Below are positions 6,024 through 57,672 of a stretch of 64,000 nucleotides of DNA, piece by piece. The translations under genes and the position numbers were made by a program. Position 1 is the first letter of the stretch. The number at the start of each line of letters is the position of its first letter. The notes under the pieces were generated by a model. It did not search any database and had not been told where the DNA came from. It was given only the letters and a program-made list of their open reading frames with translations. This DNA is from a virus, in the IMG/VR virus record IMGVR_UViG_3300021368_002114, positions 1 to 64,000 of that record; one strand, written 5' to 3'.

Positions 6024-7649
<1,626 letters not shown>

Positions 7650-18910: not shown

Positions 18911-20293
18911 ATGGCAAAAAAGAAAAAGATTTTATTACTATCTGATGATTTGAGAATGTCATCGGGTATTGCAACTGTATCCAAAGAATTCGTTTTTGGA
19001 AACTTTGATAAGTTTGATTGGGTTCAATTAGGAGCCGCAGTAAATCATCCTGAAAAAGGGAAAGAAATTGATTTAGGAGATGATGCAAGAAAGATAAGTG
19101 GAATAAAAGATGCTTCACTTAAAATCATTCCTTGGAGTGGATATGGTGATGCAAATATCTTAAGAGAGTTGATAATGAGACATCAACCAGATGCAATCTT
19201 ACACTTTACAGACCCAAGATATTGGAGATGGTTGTATGAAATTGAAGCAGAAATAAGACAAAACATTCCAATTTTATTTTATCATATATGGGATGACCTG
19301 CCAGACCCCCACTATAATAGAAACTATTATGAATCATGTGATTGGTTGGGATGTATCTCAAGACAAACTTATGGTATCGTAAGTAGAGTTGGTAAATTAG
19401 AATCAGAAACAATCAAACCCTTAGAAGATTGGCAAGTAGATTATGTACCTCATGGTATTAATCCAAAAACATACAAACCAGTTGAAGTTCCATCTGAATT
19501 TAAGAAAGAACTTTTAGGTGATAAAGATTATAAGTTTGTTTTATTTTGGATGAACAGAAACATCAAAAGAAAACAACCATCAGATGTTATATGGGCATTT
19601 AAGAAATTTAGAGATAAACTACCAGAATCAGATAAAGATAAGGTATGTTTAATAATGCATACAGCACCAAGAGACCAAAATGGTACTGATTTAATTGAAG
19701 TTAAGAGAAGAATAGCAAATGAATGTGATATTAGATTCTCAACAGAGAGAGTTACACAAGAACAATTAAATTGGATTTATAATTTATCAGATTGTACAAT
19801 CAATATAGCTGGTAATGAAGGGTTCGGATTAACAACTGCAGAATCTATCATGGCAGGAACTCCTGCAATTATAAATGTGACTGGTGGATTACAAGACCAA
19901 TGTGGATTCAAATTAGATGGTAAATATCTAACTGCTGAAGATTACAAAGAAATCGGTTCACTTCATAATTGGAGAGAGTGGGAAGATAAATTAACCCATG
20001 GTGAGTGGGTGAAACCAGTTTGGCCAAGAGTTCAAACTATGGTTGGTTCACTACCTACTCCATATATTATAGATGATAAAGTAGATGTTGAAGAGGTTTC
20101 AGAGGCTATTAAGTATTGGTATGATAAAACACCAAAAGAAAGAAAAGAGGCTGGATTAATAGGTAGACAAGAATTCTTAGGTGATGTTGGATTAAATGCA
20201 GAAAACCAAAACAAAAAAATGGCAGAGGGAATCCTCAAAGGAATCGAAAATTGGAAACCAAAGAAGAAGTTTAATGTATATAAACTTAGGTAA
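18911..20293 (+). CDS. GT4-family glycosyltransferase
   Basis: 460 residues, GT-B fold. N-terminal ILLLSDDLRMSSGIATVS is the acceptor-side Rossmann start; YVPHGINPKTYKP and the donor-binding EGFGLTTAESIMAGTPAI near residue 305 are the standard GT4 signature with its Glu. It is the first gene of a ~12.7 kb run of sugar genes. Donor and acceptor sugars are unknown. Confidence 0.85.
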   Translation: MAKKKKILLLSDDLRMSSGIATVSKEFVFGNFDKFDWVQLGAAVNHPEKGKEIDLGDDARKISGIKDASLKIIPWSGYGDANILRELIMRHQPDAILHFTDPRYWRWLYEIEAEIRQNIPILFYHIWDDLPDPHYNRNYYESCDWLGCISRQTYGIVSRVGKLESETIKPLEDWQVDYVPHGINPKTYKPVEVPSEFKKELLGDKDYKFVLFWMNRNIKRKQPSDVIWAFKKFRDKLPESDKDKVCLIMHTAPRDQNGTDLIEVKRRIANECDIRFSTERVTQEQLNWIYNLSDCTINIAGNEGFGLTTAESIMAGTPAIINVTGGLQDQCGFKLDGKYLTAEDYKEIGSLHNWREWEDKLTHGEWVKPVWPRVQTMVGSLPTPYIIDDKVDVEEVSEAIKYWYDKTPKERKEAGLIGRQEFLGDVGLNAENQNKKMAEGILKGIENWKPKKKFNVYKLR

Positions 20294-20571
20294 TGAGTAA
20301 ACCAATCTTCATTGTTAGATTTCCAGGTTATTGGACTAATAATCAAGTTCAAGAATCTCGTAGGGCGATTCATAGTATGAAAGAACTTAGTGATGATTAT
20401 CATGTTTTAACTTTACAAGATAATGAAATCGAAACTACAAAATTTGAATGTTATAATTCACCACACGAGCCAGAGAAATTAGAAGAAGTAACTCGATTAA
20501 CAACACTTTCTATCGAAAGATGTTTAAGAAACGAAGAAGAAAACAGATTAAGAGAATTAGAAGATGAATAA
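20293..20571 (+). CDS. Hypothetical protein in glycan island
   Basis: 92 residues, starting with a strand-like IFIVRFPGYW and ending in a Glu/Arg-rich helix. It overlaps both glycosyltransferase neighbours by 1 and 8 bases. No family recognised. Confidence 0.65.
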   Translation: MSKPIFIVRFPGYWTNNQVQESRRAIHSMKELSDDYHVLTLQDNEIETTKFECYNSPHEPEKLEEVTRLTTLSIERCLRNEEENRLRELEDE

Positions 20572-21823
20572 ACCATTATTAGTATTTCAGGCACCAATAG
20601 CAACAAGAAGTGGTTATGGTGACCATTCAAGAGATATCTTGAAATCATTATTTGAATTAGATAAGTATGATATAAAAGTTGTACCAACGAGATGGGGAAA
20701 CACCCCACAAGACCAAATCAATCCACAAACTGAATTTGGTAAAAAGATATTAGAATGCTTGGCAACTCAAGTAACTAGACAACCTGATATTTTTATACAA
20801 GTATCTGTTGCAAATGAGTTTAGAAAAGTTGGTAAGTATAACATAGGAATTACAGCTGGAGTTGAAACTACAACTGCTCCACAAGAGTTTTTACAAGGTG
20901 GAAATCAAATGGATTTAATTATAACTCCATCTGAATTTACTAAAGAAACTTTGATTAAAACAAACTATACTCAAGTAGATAAAAGAACTCAACAAAAAAC
21001 AGGTGAACTAAAATTAGAAAAACCAGTTGAAGTTTTATTTGAAGGAGTAGATACAAAGGTATTCAATGGTAAGTGTTCAAAATCTATTTTGGATAATGTT
21101 GATACTGATTTTAACTTTTTATTTGTAGGACATTGGTTAGCAGGAGATTTAGGACAAGATAGGAAAGATGTTGGAATGATGATTCAAACATTTTGTACTG
21201 TTTTCAAAGATTTACCAAAGAATCAACAACCTGGTCTTATACTGAAAACCTCACAAGCAGGATTCTCAGTAATGGAAAGAGAATCAACATCTAATAAAAT
21301 TAAAGAATTAACAAATCAATTTGGTGATAAATGTCCTCCTATTCATTTAGTGTTCGGTGATTTATCTGAATCAGAACTAAACGATTTGTATAATGATAAA
21401 AAAGTTAAGGCATTTTTAATGTTCACTAAAGGTGAAGGTTATGGTAGACCTCTTGCAGAGTTCGCTACAACAGGTAAACCAATACTTGTTTCAAATTGGA
21501 GTGGACATAAAGATTTCTTACCAGAAGAAAATACAGTTTACTTAGAAGGTGAACTTAAAAATGTACACCAAACAGCTGCAAACAAATTCTTACTTAAAGA
21601 ATCAAAATGGTTCAATGTAGATTACTCTAAAGCAGCGGCTTCTATATTTGATGTTTATAAGAACTATAAAAGCCATACTAAGAAAAGTGCTGGATTAAAA
21701 ACTAATATAAACAATAACTTTAATTTAGATAAGATGACAAAAAGATTTGGAGAAATACTTGATAAGTACGTTAAAGTTGCTGTACCAGTTGCACTAAAGT
21801 TACCAGAAATTAAGAAATTATAA
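20564..21823 (+). CDS. GT4-family glycosyltransferase
   Basis: 419 residues. ATRSGYGDHSRDILKSL resembles the N-terminal loop of GT4 enzymes; VLFEGVDTKVF is the linker, and FTKGEGYGRPLAEFATTGKP is the donor-binding Glu motif. Probably a partner of the gene at 18911, since both share the serine/glycine loop after the first strand. Confidence 0.85.
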   Translation: MNKPLLVFQAPIATRSGYGDHSRDILKSLFELDKYDIKVVPTRWGNTPQDQINPQTEFGKKILECLATQVTRQPDIFIQVSVANEFRKVGKYNIGITAGVETTTAPQEFLQGGNQMDLIITPSEFTKETLIKTNYTQVDKRTQQKTGELKLEKPVEVLFEGVDTKVFNGKCSKSILDNVDTDFNFLFVGHWLAGDLGQDRKDVGMMIQTFCTVFKDLPKNQQPGLILKTSQAGFSVMERESTSNKIKELTNQFGDKCPPIHLVFGDLSESELNDLYNDKKVKAFLMFTKGEGYGRPLAEFATTGKPILVSNWSGHKDFLPEENTVYLEGELKNVHQTAANKFLLKESKWFNVDYSKAAASIFDVYKNYKSHTKKSAGLKTNINNNFNLDKMTKRFGEILDKYVKVAVPVALKLPEIKKL

Positions 21824-47787: not shown

Positions 47788-48654
47788 ATGTACGATAATT
47801 TACACCACCATTTTGAATTCTTAAAACCAGATAGAATACCTGAATCTTTCAAATATACTGTATATGATACTTTAATAGAAGAAGATATTCAAGGGTATGG
47901 AAAAAGAACACCTTGGCCTGAAGATTATCATTCACATGAAAAAGATAGATTACTTTCTTTACTAGAAACTGATAGGGATAGATTCCAAAAGTATAATTGG
48001 GTTGATGAGAATAATAACCTTATATTTCCAACATATGATTGTGATTGGTTTGGAATGAGAACTAATTTAGTTCCAAGAGATGGTATAAGTTTAGCTTTAG
48101 GATGTAGTTATACATTTGGTTTGGGTAATCACATTGACCAAATTTGGCCAAGTTATTTATCAAAAGAATTAAATATTGATATAATGAATTTGGGAGTATG
48201 TGGAGGGGGTGTGGATACTTGTTATAGATTATTAAAAGCTTACACAAAAGATTTTTCAGTTAAAAATGTATTTATCCTAATTCCTGGTTGTTATAGATAT
48301 GAAAGATTTTATAGTAAATCAGTAGGTGGTATAAGACATCTAAGATTATTACCTAACTATCCTGAACTTACTAAGGAGGAACAGAAAATATATGATATTA
48401 CTTGGAGTAAAGTTGAATCATTAGATGAAAACGTTTTTATTAACTTCCATAAGAACCTTGAAGCAATCAGATATATTTGTATTAAAAAGAATATAAAATT
48501 ATATGAATACTTAAATCCCACATTTTATCTTCCTCATGAATCTCAACACTTCCAATGGCCAATAACAAAATATACATCTTTTTGTTCTGTTCACCATGGA
48601 CCAGAAATACATGAATTTATTACTGATGAATTCCTTAAATTATACCAAAAATAA
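47788..48654 (+). CDS. SGNH-hydrolase-like protein
   Basis: 288 residues. ISLALGCSYTFGLGN (nucleophile Ser block), LGVCGGGVDTCYR (Gly block), VFILIPGCYRY, and a C-terminal CSVHHGPEIHEFI as the His block. This resembles phage and surface-polysaccharide SGNH enzymes that remove or add acyl groups. It ends just before promoter P5. Confidence 0.6.
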   Translation: MYDNLHHHFEFLKPDRIPESFKYTVYDTLIEEDIQGYGKRTPWPEDYHSHEKDRLLSLLETDRDRFQKYNWVDENNNLIFPTYDCDWFGMRTNLVPRDGISLALGCSYTFGLGNHIDQIWPSYLSKELNIDIMNLGVCGGGVDTCYRLLKAYTKDFSVKNVFILIPGCYRYERFYSKSVGGIRHLRLLPNYPELTKEEQKIYDITWSKVESLDENVFINFHKNLEAIRYICIKKNIKLYEYLNPTFYLPHESQHFQWPITKYTSFCSVHHGPEIHEFITDEFLKLYQK

Positions 48655-53411: not shown

Positions 53412-53885
53412 ATGATATATTGGTTTACAGGTCAGCCAGGTGCTGGTAAAACTGTATTAGGAAAAAAACTTCACTCATTCCTTAAAACTGAAAAAAGAAA
53501 TTGGAGAAAATCTGCATTTCATCTTGATGGAGATGAACTAAGAGAACTTACAATTAATAAGGATTATTCACCTGAGGGTAGAGAAAATAATATTAGAAAT
53601 GCACATATGATTGTTGAGTATCTAAATAACAATGGATGTGATGTTGTGGTATCTCTCGTTGCACCATATAGATGGTTGAGAGAAGAGTTAAAAGAAAGAA
53701 TTGGATTTGAAAACTTCTGTGAATTTTATGTACATTGTTCAGAACCTCGTGAAAGAGACCACTTTCATGTGAAAGATTATGAGGCACCAGAAGTTGAATT
53801 TATTGATGTAGATACTACAAAGGACTCACCTGAAGTATCTTTTTCAAAAATTATAAATCATTTAACTAAGTTAGATAAATTATAG
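53412..53885 (+). CDS. cysC: Adenylylsulfate (APS) kinase-like enzyme
   Basis: 157 residues. P-loop FTGQPGAGKTVLGKKL, HLDGDELREL, YSPEGRENNIRNAHMIVEYL and VVVSLVAPYRWLREELK follow the CysC order. The enzyme phosphorylates APS to PAPS, the sulfate donor for sulfotransferases. A sulfotransferase-like gene lies at 54289-54897 and a DUF2061 gene at 56451-56672, a domain known to associate with CysC. No ATP sulfurylase was identified in the window. Confidence 0.85.
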   Translation: MIYWFTGQPGAGKTVLGKKLHSFLKTEKRNWRKSAFHLDGDELRELTINKDYSPEGRENNIRNAHMIVEYLNNNGCDVVVSLVAPYRWLREELKERIGFENFCEFYVHCSEPRERDHFHVKDYEAPEVEFIDVDTTKDSPEVSFSKIINHLTKLDKL

Positions 53886-54289
53886 TGAAAGATTATGTAC
53901 TAGATTACATCAATTCATTATACTTTGAACTCAGACCAAGTAAAATTCATGGAGTGGGATTATTCTCAATTTGTGATATATCAGTTGGTTCAAATATATT
54001 TCCTTTATGGAATGGAGATACATCGGAATATAACATAAGTATTAAAAAAATAAAACCTCATGTACTTGAGGTAATTCAAAAATATTTTCCAATAGTAGAT
54101 GGTAAAATAAAACTGTTGTTAATTCATAACTTTTGTTTTTGGTTTCCTTGGAGAATATACACAAACACACATTCAAAGTTTAATATAACTTATGATGGAA
54201 CTGCTTTATATGATATTAAAAAAAATGATGAAATTTTACTTAAAACATATTTTGATTCTTATTCAGAAAAACCAAATAAAATTTTCTAA
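53885..54289 (+). CDS. SET-domain-like protein
   Basis: 134 residues from a GTG overlapping the cysC stop. SKIHGVGLFSICDISVGSNI is the usual opening of SET domains, and KFNITYDGTALYDIKKNDEI with ILLKTYFDSY matches the final block where A-x-x-D-I and a Tyr bind SAM and substrate. SET proteins methylate lysine. Short phage examples exist; the target is unknown. Confidence 0.6.
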   Translation: MKDYVLDYINSLYFELRPSKIHGVGLFSICDISVGSNIFPLWNGDTSEYNISIKKIKPHVLEVIQKYFPIVDGKIKLLLIHNFCFWFPWRIYTNTHSKFNITYDGTALYDIKKNDEILLKTYFDSYSEKPNKIF

Positions 54290-54897
54290 TGAAAGTATTA
54301 ATTATATCGGCACCTAGATGTGGTTCAACTTCTTTATCGAGAGCTATAGCCTCATCATATGGATTAAGGAAACATGAAGAGCCATATAACTTTTATTGGG
54401 GTGAATTATATGAATCTGAAACTATTCCATCATATGATTGTGTAATTAAATGTATGTCTTATGAAAAACTACCAAAATGGAATACAGCTGTAGAATTTCT
54501 AACTGATTTATCTAAAGAGTTCACTCATGTTATTTGTTTAGATAGAAGAAACTTTCAAGAGCAAAATGAAAGTTTTTCATATATGAGACAAAAAAGATAC
54601 GATGGCCCATGGCAAGAACCATATATTTTTGATGATAAAGCTAAAAAAGATGTAGATTTTATAAGAGATGAACAGTACTTAAAAGTTCTAAAAGATAATG
54701 TTCATCTAGTTGCAAAAAATATAGGTACAAAAGTTACATTTTATGAGGATATATTTTGTGGTGATGAACCCTTATTTTTATATGAAATGTGGAAGCTCGG
54801 ATTAGATATAGACTACAGTAAGGCCGAAAAATTTGTAAATCCTGGTAATAAGTTAAGAATAGATAGAAATTCAAGTATAAAATATAATGTAATATGA
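54289..54897 (+). CDS. Sulfotransferase-like protein
   Basis: 202 residues. The N-terminal IISAPRCGSTSLSRAIASS is the PAPS 5'-phosphosulfate loop (P-R-x-G-S-T-S/T-L), and HVICLDRRNFQEQNESF resembles the 3'-phosphate site (R...S-x-S pattern). KAEKFVNPGNKLRIDRN follows. With CysC it would form a donor-and-transfer module that sulfates a glycan or protein, perhaps the product of the glycan island. Confidence 0.75.
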   Translation: MKVLIISAPRCGSTSLSRAIASSYGLRKHEEPYNFYWGELYESETIPSYDCVIKCMSYEKLPKWNTAVEFLTDLSKEFTHVICLDRRNFQEQNESFSYMRQKRYDGPWQEPYIFDDKAKKDVDFIRDEQYLKVLKDNVHLVAKNIGTKVTFYEDIFCGDEPLFLYEMWKLGLDIDYSKAEKFVNPGNKLRIDRNSSIKYNVI

Positions 54898-55598
54898 AAA
54901 TAGCCTTTTGTTTCTTGGCTTATGGTGATGAATATGTTAGAGAGTTTCTTCAAATAGCTCCAAACTTTCCTAAAGAAGATATTATAGTTACTTCAGATAG
55001 ACAAATAGAAGATTACAATACTATAATTGTTAATGAAGATTTTAACTTTCATTTACGAGTAAAAGCAATTGAAAAAGCATTAGAAACTTATGATAATATT
55101 TTATCATTAGATACAGACCATTATATAAGAGGATTGGATTTGAATTATTTTAGTAAATTTCACAATAAAGGAATTGTTATGAAATGGTTTGGTGATTCGG
55201 TGGAATATTTAGGTGAACATATAACAAGTGATGATTTATCAAATGGATTAACATCTAGACAGGATGTAAATGAGTTTGGTAGAATGTTATATTTCTTAAA
55301 CAATTCAGAAGAAGTAAAATTTTTAGATGAATCAGTATTATTTATATCAATTACTGATAGTGAATTAAAATCTAAGTTTGTGGATATTTATAAAAAGTTA
55401 ATAAATCATACAAAAAATAAACAACCATATAGAGAAACTGATAAAACATATGGAGCATTGGAAGGGTGTTTAATGTATGTATGTTTTAGATTATCTAATG
55501 TAGAATTACATACAGAAAGTAAGTTTCTAAATAAAACATTTATTCACTATGGTCCAGTTGAAGGACATAATGTTAAAATAAAAAGTAAAATATTATGA
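54894..55598 (+). CDS. GT-A-type glycosyltransferase-like protein
   Basis: 234 residues. IAFCFLAYGDEYVREFLQIA and NILSLDTDHYIRGL (DxD) near residue 73 resemble GT8-like enzymes. It lies between the sulfotransferase and nucleotidyltransferase genes with overlapping ends, so it may prepare the sugar that is sulfated. Confidence 0.6.
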   Translation: MKIAFCFLAYGDEYVREFLQIAPNFPKEDIIVTSDRQIEDYNTIIVNEDFNFHLRVKAIEKALETYDNILSLDTDHYIRGLDLNYFSKFHNKGIVMKWFGDSVEYLGEHITSDDLSNGLTSRQDVNEFGRMLYFLNNSEEVKFLDESVLFISITDSELKSKFVDIYKKLINHTKNKQPYRETDKTYGALEGCLMYVCFRLSNVELHTESKFLNKTFIHYGPVEGHNVKIKSKIL

Positions 55599-55954
55599 GT
55601 AAAAAATATTCAATGTTTATTGGTAGATGGCAACCTTTACACAAAGGGCATCTATGGTTAATTCATCAAAGATTAAAAGAAGGTAAGAATGTTTGTTTAG
55701 CAATTAGAGATGTTGAACCAAACGAAAACCAACCTTGGACTGCAAAACAGATTGAGGAGATGGTACATGAAGGAGAACTAAAACAATTAATACAAGATGG
55801 TAGAATTATTACGACTATTATTCCTGACATTGAATCTATCAATTACGGTAGAGGAGTCGGATATGATGTTATAGAACACTTTCCTCCTGAGGAAATTAAA
55901 GAAATATCTGCAACTAAGATTAGAGAACAGATGAGAGCTGATGGTAAGTTATGA
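55595..55954 (+). CDS. Cytidylyltransferase/nucleotidyltransferase-like protein
   Basis: 119 residues. FIGRWQPLHKGHLWLIHQR (H-x-G-H nucleotide motif) near residue 8 and EISATKIREQM (I-S-x-T-x-x-R) at the end are the two hallmarks of the superfamily that includes NMN adenylyltransferase, CTP-dependent cytidylyltransferases and ATP sulfurylase. It is among the shortest. The substrate is not determinable, but position suggests a link to the sulfation or glycan pathway. Confidence 0.75.
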   Translation: MSKKYSMFIGRWQPLHKGHLWLIHQRLKEGKNVCLAIRDVEPNENQPWTAKQIEEMVHEGELKQLIQDGRIITTIIPDIESINYGRGVGYDVIEHFPPEEIKEISATKIREQMRADGKL

Positions 55955-56451
55955 TAGAAATATTAGATGATTTTTTATCAAAACAACAATGTAAATTTTT
56001 AATAAACCAATACTTGCAAAACGAAGATAAGTTATTTGAAGTAGATGATATGACTTATAGTTTTGAGGGGTTAAATATTATTAAATCTAATATAGAATTT
56101 GAATCTGTAATTCCAAAACTAAAATCTATGTATTATCAAAATAGATTAAGAATACAAAAAGTTAACGAAAATACTAACTTAAATAAAAATTATCATAGTC
56201 ATAAAAATGATTACGAATCTGTGAATAATAATTTTGTTATTTTCTTAAATGATAATTATAATGGAGGGGAGTTAGAATTTGATGGTATAGAATTAACTAA
56301 AATAAAACCTAAAACAGGAAGAATAGTTAAGTTTACAGCAGAAGAACCACATAGAGTTTTGAAGGTTGTAGGTGATAGGTTTACTTTAGTTGGATTTTTA
56401 GATAATAATATTACACATGGTGATTTGACAATAAAAAATCATTTAATATAA
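55951..56451 (+). CDS. 2OG-Fe(II) oxygenase-like (prolyl 4-hydroxylase type)
   Basis: 166 residues. NYHSHKNDYESV contributes the first His block, NFVIFLNDNYNGGELEFDG is the classic strand and turn, and GRIVKFTAEEPHRVLKVVGD with RFTLVGFL gives the distal His and the Arg for 2-oxoglutarate. Small phage members hydroxylate unknown targets. It overlaps the neighbouring genes by 4 and 1 bases. Confidence 0.75.
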   Translation: MIEILDDFLSKQQCKFLINQYLQNEDKLFEVDDMTYSFEGLNIIKSNIEFESVIPKLKSMYYQNRLRIQKVNENTNLNKNYHSHKNDYESVNNNFVIFLNDNYNGGELEFDGIELTKIKPKTGRIVKFTAEEPHRVLKVVGDRFTLVGFLDNNITHGDLTIKNHLI

Positions 56452-56672
56452 TGGTAAGTAGAAAAAGACACATACTAAAAACAATAAGTTGGAGAATTAT
56501 AGGTACATTAGATACTATGATTCTTTCATGGATTATTACAGGCAATTGGAAAGTTGGAGTTGCAATCGGTGGTGTAGAGTTATTAACAAAAATGGTTCTT
56601 TATTATTTTCATGAAAGAGCCTGGTATAAATTTAGTAGTTATGGAATTGATAAGACCAAACGTAAAAAATGA
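56451..56672 (+). CDS. DUF2061 membrane protein
   Basis: 73 residues. RKRHILKTISWRIIGTLDTM, WIITGNWKVGVAIGG and VLYYFHERAWYKF are the DUF2061 signature, with two membrane segments. The family is known to occur beside or fused to adenylylsulfate kinases, which supports a membrane-linked role in the local sulfation module. Confidence 0.85.
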   Translation: MVSRKRHILKTISWRIIGTLDTMILSWIITGNWKVGVAIGGVELLTKMVLYYFHERAWYKFSSYGIDKTKRKK

Positions 56673-57672
56673 ATGGGGTAATCTCAAAGAGATTATCGTA
56701 GGTAGTGCAATCAATGCACAAGTACCAACAGTAGGAGATAAGTGTTTACATAATATTGATTATGCACATCTTTCTGATGAAGAGTTTCAAAATAGACCGA
56801 GTGGATTATATCCACAACAGATTATAGAAGAAACTGAAGAAGATTTAGATAGGATTGCTGAACAACTTACTGAAATAGGAGTAAAGGTTCACAGACCTTT
56901 AGAAAGAGATTTTTCACAACCAATTAAAACAGAAAATTGGGAAGTAGATGGGTACTACAACTATTGTCCTCGTGATTCTATGTTTGTTATTAACGATAAG
57001 GTTATTGCAACTCCAATGACTTTGAGACATCGTTCTAATGAAGCTGAAACTTGTAAACCACTATTCGAACCAAGTTCGTGGGTAGAAGCACCAAAACCAA
57101 AATTATTAGATTCAATTTATCAGAGGGAAGATTTATCAATTCCTACCCTACTCGATGGTGAGCCTGTATTTGATGCAGCAAACGTAATCAAACACAATAA
57201 TGATATTCTTTATCTTGTATCTAACACAGGTAATAAAGATGGAGCAAAGTGGTTAGAAGGATATTGTAAAGAAAACTTTGGTAATGAGTACAAAGTACAC
57301 ACCGCAGAAGGGATTTATGCGTACATTCACATTGATACTACGTTTGTATTCGTTGGTGAGGGTAAAGTACTCTTAAATCCAACGAGAGTGAACGAGAACA
57401 ACATACCAGAGTTCTTAAAACCATTCGATAAGATTTGGTCACCTGATATGATTGTAACAAATGTATTAGAAGATTGGTGTTCTGCCTCACCTTGGTTGGG
57501 AATGAACATCTTACCAATAAACGATAAACTTTGTATGGTTGAAGAAAGACAAACCAATCTAATACATGAACTTAAGAAGTGGGGTATTGAAACTCTTCCA
57601 GTCCGAATGAGACATGCTAGAACTTTTAGTGGAGGACCTCATTGTGTAACTTTGGATGTAGTAAGAGAATAA
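56641..57672 (+). CDS. Glycine/inosamine amidinotransferase-like enzyme
   Basis: 343 residues from the ATG at 56641, chosen so that the protein starts with the conserved segment leading to NEWGNLKEIIVG; an ATG at 56611 is also in frame, and either overlaps the DUF2061 gene. CPRDSMFVI, FDAANVIKH, YIHIDTTFVFVGEGKVLLNP and the catalytic Cys in FSGGPHCVTLDVV are standard. It transfers an amidino group from arginine to an amine. Similar genes are known in T4-like cyanophages. Confidence 0.88.
   Translation: MELIRPNVKNEWGNLKEIIVGSAINAQVPTVGDKCLHNIDYAHLSDEEFQNRPSGLYPQQIIEETEEDLDRIAEQLTEIGVKVHRPLERDFSQPIKTENWEVDGYYNYCPRDSMFVINDKVIATPMTLRHRSNEAETCKPLFEPSSWVEAPKPKLLDSIYQREDLSIPTLLDGEPVFDAANVIKHNNDILYLVSNTGNKDGAKWLEGYCKENFGNEYKVHTAEGIYAYIHIDTTFVFVGEGKVLLNPTRVNENNIPEFLKPFDKIWSPDMIVTNVLEDWCSASPWLGMNILPINDKLCMVEERQTNLIHELKKWGIETLPVRMRHARTFSGGPHCVTLDVVRE

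Follow-up and report, generated by a model that had tools for sequence, protein, structure and literature searches.

A phage locus with a likely sulfate-activation and sulfate-transfer module and a small nucleotidyltransferase as its probable ATP sulfurylase

The current analysis describes a cluster of seven open reading frames (ORFs) at positions 53412–56672 of a 64,000-nucleotide stretch (the window, by which we mean this whole stretch), part of a 65,257-base IMG/VR viral record (IMGVR_UViG_3300021368_002114). The ORFs all run in the same direction and neighbours overlap by 1–4 bases (Table 1), an operon-like arrangement already described in an original prediction, made from the sequence alone, that the phage carries a sulfation module. 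Two ORFs were absent from that prediction, one resembling a SET-domain protein by eye (53885) and one encoding a 2-oxoglutarate (2OG)-Fe(II) oxygenase (55951). The underlying observation is real and a sulfation module is its best reading; what is new is that the small nucleotidyltransferase (NT) at 55595 is probably an ATP sulfurylase. Its partner is a CysC-like kinase, predicted to convert adenosine 5'-phosphosulfate (APS) into the sulfate donor 3'-phosphoadenosine 5'-phosphosulfate (PAPS).

Table 1. ORFs of the cluster and the basis of their assignment.
Feature	Position	Strand	Basis
APS kinase (CysC-like), short-lid form	53412..53885	+	PF01583 E 2.1e-17, AF2 model, conserved residues
Variable cargo ORF, SET-domain-like by eye only	53885..54289	+	no family match
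Predicted PAPS sulfotransferase (Stf0/NodH-like), variable cargo	54289..54897	+	fold and motif
Variable cargo ORF, called glycosyltransferase-like in the original prediction	54894..55598	+	no family match; single distant relative, in module locus L083
Small HIGH-type nucleotidyltransferase (NT), predicted minimal ATP sulfurylase	55595..55954	+	CTP_transf_like (Pfam) E 1.4e-6, linkage, genome pattern
2OG-Fe(II) oxygenase, recurrent accessory	55951..56451	+	PF13640 E 2.9e-9
DUF2061 small membrane protein, core	56451..56672	+	PF09834 E 2e-24

There is strong support for regarding the 53412 protein as a short-lid, APS-kinase-like enzyme, and phosphorylation of APS is its predicted activity. It scores 64 bits against PF01583, for which the Pfam cut-off is 21.1. 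An AlphaFold2 (AF2) model built from 65 sequences (predicted local distance difference test, pLDDT, 92) best matches the Archaeoglobus APS kinase 7yq1 (VIA Z 21.5, root-mean-square deviation 1.8, 151 aa), and its top 30 structural matches are without exception APS kinases or their fusions. The best other kinase, gluconate kinase, reaches Z 15.8, and a profile of the kinase likewise ranks APS kinases first among PDB sequences; the protein thus aligns better with APS kinases, as originally proposed, than with another kinase family. Residues D41, R44, Y52, R57 and N60 are retained by at least 97% of 65 viral sequences and correspond to what we take to be the APS site of the Penicillium chrysogenum enzyme (Asp63, Arg66, Phe75, Arg80 and Asn83). 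Apart from Y52, which is Phe in CysC, these residues and the fold are shared with CysC, whereas the phage lid has 10 residues rather than the 24 of canonical CysC, the full-length D-x-KG-LY...GFTGID lid is not present, and roughly half of the viral members have Ala in place of the SPY-motif serine. A full-length lid is not known to be essential to APS kinases.

When the cluster is compared with those of other viruses, it is evident that the kinase rarely travels alone. We collected 80 viral loci anchored on the kinase and 80 anchored on the NT, which has at least 586 viral relatives; the loci kept are those of the closest relatives, and the fractions below apply to this subset of the family. 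Among the kinase-anchored loci, 71 of 80 contain the NT and 64 of 80 contain DUF2061. The kinase lies within 3 kb of the NT in 77 of the 80 NT-anchored loci, two of the three misses falling at a contig end, and at least 63 of the 80 (about four fifths) include DUF2061. Because these three genes recur in the same order over dozens of viral contigs, their arrangement is not due to chance. Co-occurrence in other phages holds for the kinase, the NT and DUF2061, but is uncommon for the sulfotransferase, since a relative of the window type is present in 5/80 kinase-anchored loci and a sulfotransferase in 9/80 NT-anchored ones. The conserved module is the kinase, NT and DUF2061, with the sulfotransferase, the SET-like ORF, the 54894 ORF and the oxygenase as exchangeable cargo. 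Searches of Pfam, PHROG and NCBIfam gave no informative match for the 53885, 54289 and 54894 ORFs, and this includes any SET family for the first and any sugar-transfer family for the last, for which the glycosyltransferase label is unproven. The 53885 ORF is absent from the other module loci and has distant relatives only in the sulfotransferase locus L106, while relatives of the oxygenase occur within or near the module in six loci (L003, L005, L047, L070, L075 and L082).

The association of DUF2061 with CysC put forward in the original prediction is evident in these viral loci, although our literature search found no paper connecting the two. Two cellular loci in Bacteroidota (L166 and L170) encode a kinase-DUF2061 fusion, and from these fusions DUF2061 is the probable membrane tether of the PAPS-making pair. 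In six viral loci (L017, L018, L019, L051, L058 and L059), DUF2061 is extended at its N terminus by a domain of some 80 residues with no obvious membrane segment, and a small ORF resembling this domain stands alone at L031:9191-9424.

Other variations on the viral layout were also encountered. A HAD phosphatase of about 114 aa lies between the kinase and NT in 28 of the 80 kinase-anchored loci (e.g. L023:8426-8770), though not at this place in the window. Its profile is nearest to the Pnkp 3'-phosphatase and it could hydrolyse 3'-phosphoadenosine 5'-phosphate, the by-product of sulfate transfer. This phosphatase had first suggested a nucleotide-sugar pathway, a candidate made less likely by the canonical CysC partners described below. 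In related phages (L004:5213-6037, L006:8471-9259 and L012:8482-9273), the cargo slot that separates kinase and NT holds an SGNH-hydrolase-like ORF (starting GxSFTEGGG), of which window 47788-48654 is a distant relative.

In several isolate phages (AhaSv, DLP_6 and Bhz60), the kinase and NT form one protein, belonging to phrog_10255; examples of the fusion from isolate Casjensviridae phages are found at L276:3142-4324 and L278:1648-2824. This PHROG, annotated as a kinase, contains the same two domains with the R38 and GRxVGY motifs of the NT retained (e.g. Xanthomonas phage AhaSv). It differs from the window module in being a single protein with a more diverged kinase and with no DUF2061 or sulfotransferase annotated nearby. 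AhaSv also encodes a cysteine dioxygenase a few genes upstream of the fusion.

The NT comprises 119 aa in the window, in a family of about 115 aa, and the presence of a small nucleotidyltransferase is confirmed by its Pfam match. It is of the HIGH type and gave no match to CysD profiles (Pfam, NCBIfam) or to PF01747, the Sat family, in the Pfam search. Sat likewise belongs to the HIGH superfamily. Among 134 viral and cellular NTs, the GRxQxxHxGH and ISxTxxR motifs, R38, P47, G85-R86 and G89 are invariant or nearly so, and the extra arginines R38 and R86 might hold sulfate or a similar small anion. The archaeal-type NadM proteins of the HIGH superfamily share the GRxQPxHxGH and ISxTxxR motifs and provide the best PDB profile matches of the NT. 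Compared with NadM and other nicotinamide mononucleotide (NMN) adenylyltransferases (NMNATs), however, the NT is shorter from the PDI strand to the ISxT motif, its invariant R38 and GRxVGY are not seen in the aligned NMNATs, its partner and genome context are sulfur-related, and it scores 38.2 bits where the curated NCBIfam cut-off for NadM is 127.

Searching genome contigs with the NT alignment yielded 77 cellular loci, from Marinimicrobia, Bacteroidota, Omnitrophota, Nitrospira, Acidobacteria, Patescibacteria and group III archaea. NT and kinase form a single protein in 28/77, with either domain first (16 NT-kinase and 12 kinase-NT); the two adjoin in another 28 and lie near each other in 8. 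Many of the cellular partners are canonical CysC proteins with a full lid (L113, L153 and L163 among them). The closest non-viral NTs, those of Marinimicrobia loci L112 and L113, are 77-80% identical to the window NT and are likewise paired with a canonical CysC. In a tree of the NT, built from few columns and with many forks left open, the window falls inside a 97%-supported clade with L112 and L113, and there are at least seven changes of kinase lid type and at least five of fusion state. Since one NT works with either form of kinase, both lid forms probably do the same job. The surroundings of the cellular copies are also informative. Pfam-confirmed sulfotransferases lie near the NT in L113 (E 2e-47), L121, L147, L153, L166 and L170, the L153 neighbourhood contains an inositol-phosphatase/CysQ-like gene, and the L113 cassette, as read by eye, adjoins a flippase and glycosyltransferases. 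Among 126 immediate neighbours, MetK occurs 9 times, UDP-glucose dehydrogenase 6 times, sulfotransferases 4 times for each of two models and arylsulfotransferases 3 times, and polysaccharide-export families were tallied as well. The S-adenosylmethionine synthetase gene stands beside the kinase-NT pair in several loci (L131:6431-8339, L149:6428-8330, L139, L157, L161, L164 and L168), from marine Bacteroidota and, apparently independently, group III archaea.

The ATP sulfurylases generally recognised are, to our knowledge, of two kinds, Sat and CysDN, and a literature search for a new, alternative or atypical one found nothing. An NT that makes APS would free its genome from the need for either. 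Among 50 genomes encoding the NT, 48 have an APS kinase, 5 have Sat, 8 have a clear CysD and 38 have neither. As a control, we examined 198 Bacteroidia genomes, 96 of which carry a canonical APS kinase without the NT; CysD or Sat is present in 94 of these 96. Sat and CysD are both missing from 21 of the 32 NT-bearing genomes with a canonical APS kinase and from 2 of the 96 NT-free ones (Fisher p 4e-14), and for Bacteroidota alone the figures are 11/12 versus 2/96 (p 3e-12). The NT was too rare across the Bacteroidia class and in the family of genome G038 for a within-group test, and a Marinimicrobia family was used together with the class control. In that family, 13 of 24 genomes have the NT; all 13 also have the APS kinase, whose only other occurrence is a fragment at a contig edge. 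As judged from gene content, the NT probably stands in for the known ATP sulfurylases in cellular genomes.

The remaining component, the 54289 protein, is supported as a PAPS sulfotransferase by its fold and motifs, consistent with what had been claimed for it. Its AF2 model (pLDDT 87.5) best matches Stf0 (Foldseek 1tex E 1e-4; VIA Z 10.7), and most of the top VIA rows are PAPS sulfotransferases, with small P-loop kinases trailing by approximately one Z unit. An alignment of its 27-member family shares PRxGSTSL, R86/S95 and YEDxF, of which the first would be the 5' phosphosulfate-binding (PSB) loop and the second the 3'-phosphate site, as assigned by motif. Like Stf0/NodH-type enzymes, it thus has the 5' loop and an R..S 3'-phosphate motif, whereas the phage family is short (about 160-200 aa). 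As sole query, the window protein retrieved nothing in the viral search; its relatives were reached via module neighbours, and the alignment made from these (A4) gave 30 loci. BLAST against isolate phages found no sulfotransferase match, and no Pfam sulfotransferase profile matched the window protein, while Sulfotransfer_3 matched 12 of the 27 relatives weakly (best E 0.066).

Based upon these features, we consider it likely that the locus is a phage-borne module for sulfate activation and sulfate transfer. Firstly, the 119-aa NT would join ATP and sulfate to form APS, acting as a minimal ATP sulfurylase that is unrelated at the family level to Sat or CysDN. Secondly, the CysC-like kinase, judging by its fold and residues, would phosphorylate APS to PAPS, and tight coupling or fusion of the two proteins could pull the unfavourable first step forward. 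Thirdly, the Stf0-like protein, as its fold suggests, would pass the sulfate from PAPS to an acceptor. The NT and kinase are accordingly predicted, on comparative grounds, to constitute a phage PAPS synthase. Like the bifunctional ATP sulfurylase-APS kinases (PAPSS, e.g. Aquifex 2gks), the pair would place a sulfurylase before an APS kinase in coupled or fused form, with a homologous kinase half; the sulfurylase half would differ in being an NMNAT-like NT of about 115 aa rather than a Sat domain. A surface glycan of the host or virion is the most likely acceptor, given how often the cellular copies occur within polysaccharide or sulfotransferase loci. On a broader scale, it seems rather likely that the NT represents a third class of ATP sulfurylase that has so far gone unrecognised, one which replaces Sat/CysDN in Marinimicrobia, marine Bacteroidota, Omnitrophota, Patescibacteria and some archaea, and which hundreds of phages spread as a complete PAPS cassette (NT, APS kinase and DUF2061) with exchangeable sulfotransferases.

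Several observations weigh against this interpretation. In sequence, the NT most resembles NMN adenylyltransferases (PDB profile E 3e-9), and a NADAR-domain gene precedes the fused kinase-NT in the Casjensviridae phage Bhz60, which could mean a role related to nicotinamide adenine dinucleotide (NAD) there. Both would fit a NadR-like salvage pathway, with the NT as NMN adenylyltransferase and the kinase as nicotinamide riboside kinase, which rebuilds NAD, perhaps against an NAD-depleting defence. We regard this as highly improbable: fold and residues make the kinase an APS kinase, canonical CysC has been swapped in on the same NT clade, the NT is distinguished from NMNATs by its shorter length and its own invariant residues, and its neighbours include sulfotransferases and sulfur genes. 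The phage lid, being 14 residues shorter, could have shifted the substrate specificity of the kinase. CysC homologues with other substrates exist, and the phosphoramidate pathway of Campylobacter combines a nucleotide-activated donor with a CysC-like 3' phosphorylation. By analogy, the acid to which the NT adds a nucleotide might not be sulfate, with the kinase supplying a 3' phosphate, but the canonical CysC partners and the pattern of Sat/CysD replacement make such a donor very unlikely.

The replacement pattern itself has limits: Sat or CysD is also present in 12 of the 50 NT genomes, absence was scored for Sat and CysD with CysN not searched, the draft and single-cell genomes are of unknown completeness and weak evidence one by one, and related genomes are not independent. 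Incompleteness alone is unlikely to cause the contrast, because CysC in the control genomes is almost always accompanied by CysD or Sat. An hhalign comparison of the NT with Sat gave no meaningful alignment (probability 7.5%), and the sulfotransferase lacks a significant sequence match when its profile is compared with PDB sequences (NodH E 0.54). Conceivably, the APS kinase and sulfotransferase are genuine, as their folds suggest, while APS comes from a host ATP sulfurylase and the NT, NMNAT-like in sequence, has another role. Supply by the host had been assumed originally, as no ATP sulfurylase was seen. We consider this unlikely and that assumption probably wrong, given that no other gene is as tightly and consistently linked to the kinase as the NT, that fusions of the two exist in both orders, and that the NT marks genomes that keep an APS kinase without Sat and CysD, which host supply leaves unexplained.

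Virome studies file phage cysC genes under assimilatory sulfate reduction (62 of them in PMC10914622, for example), whereby phage cysC, as an auxiliary metabolic gene, would boost the reduction of sulfate to cysteine, and the MetK neighbours of some cellular NTs could be seen in the same light. CysH, the PAPS reductase, was above the cut-off in none of 50 kinase-bearing viral records, which may be incomplete, and PAPS is therefore probably not destined for cysteine synthesis. Furthermore, sulfotransferases recur inside the viral module, and together with those beside the cellular copies they point to sulfate transfer as the use of PAPS, in line with the original prediction. Assimilation is consequently the least probable of the readings considered here. 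If the NT is an ATP sulfurylase as predicted, many "cysC assimilation" annotations in viromes need revising, and PAPS cassettes without CysH, sometimes with sulfotransferases, would point to viruses controlling sulfate decoration, with surface glycans as its probable target. A minimal third sulfurylase would also explain how several lineages with an APS kinase and no known sulfurylase make PAPS, and would provide a very small enzyme for PAPS production.

A number of other genes in the window are noted here. Right after DUF2061, an amidinotransferase/arginine-deiminase-like gene at 56611-57672 (phrog_25854, E 1e-25) is kept in six related phages (L003-L008). Two phrog_2170 glycosyltransferases lie elsewhere (18911-20293 and 20564-21823) and are possible makers of a glycan acceptor. 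The record also encodes a phage DNA polymerase and a GroEL chaperonin, the latter at window 6033-7649 (phrog_5725, E 2e-176).

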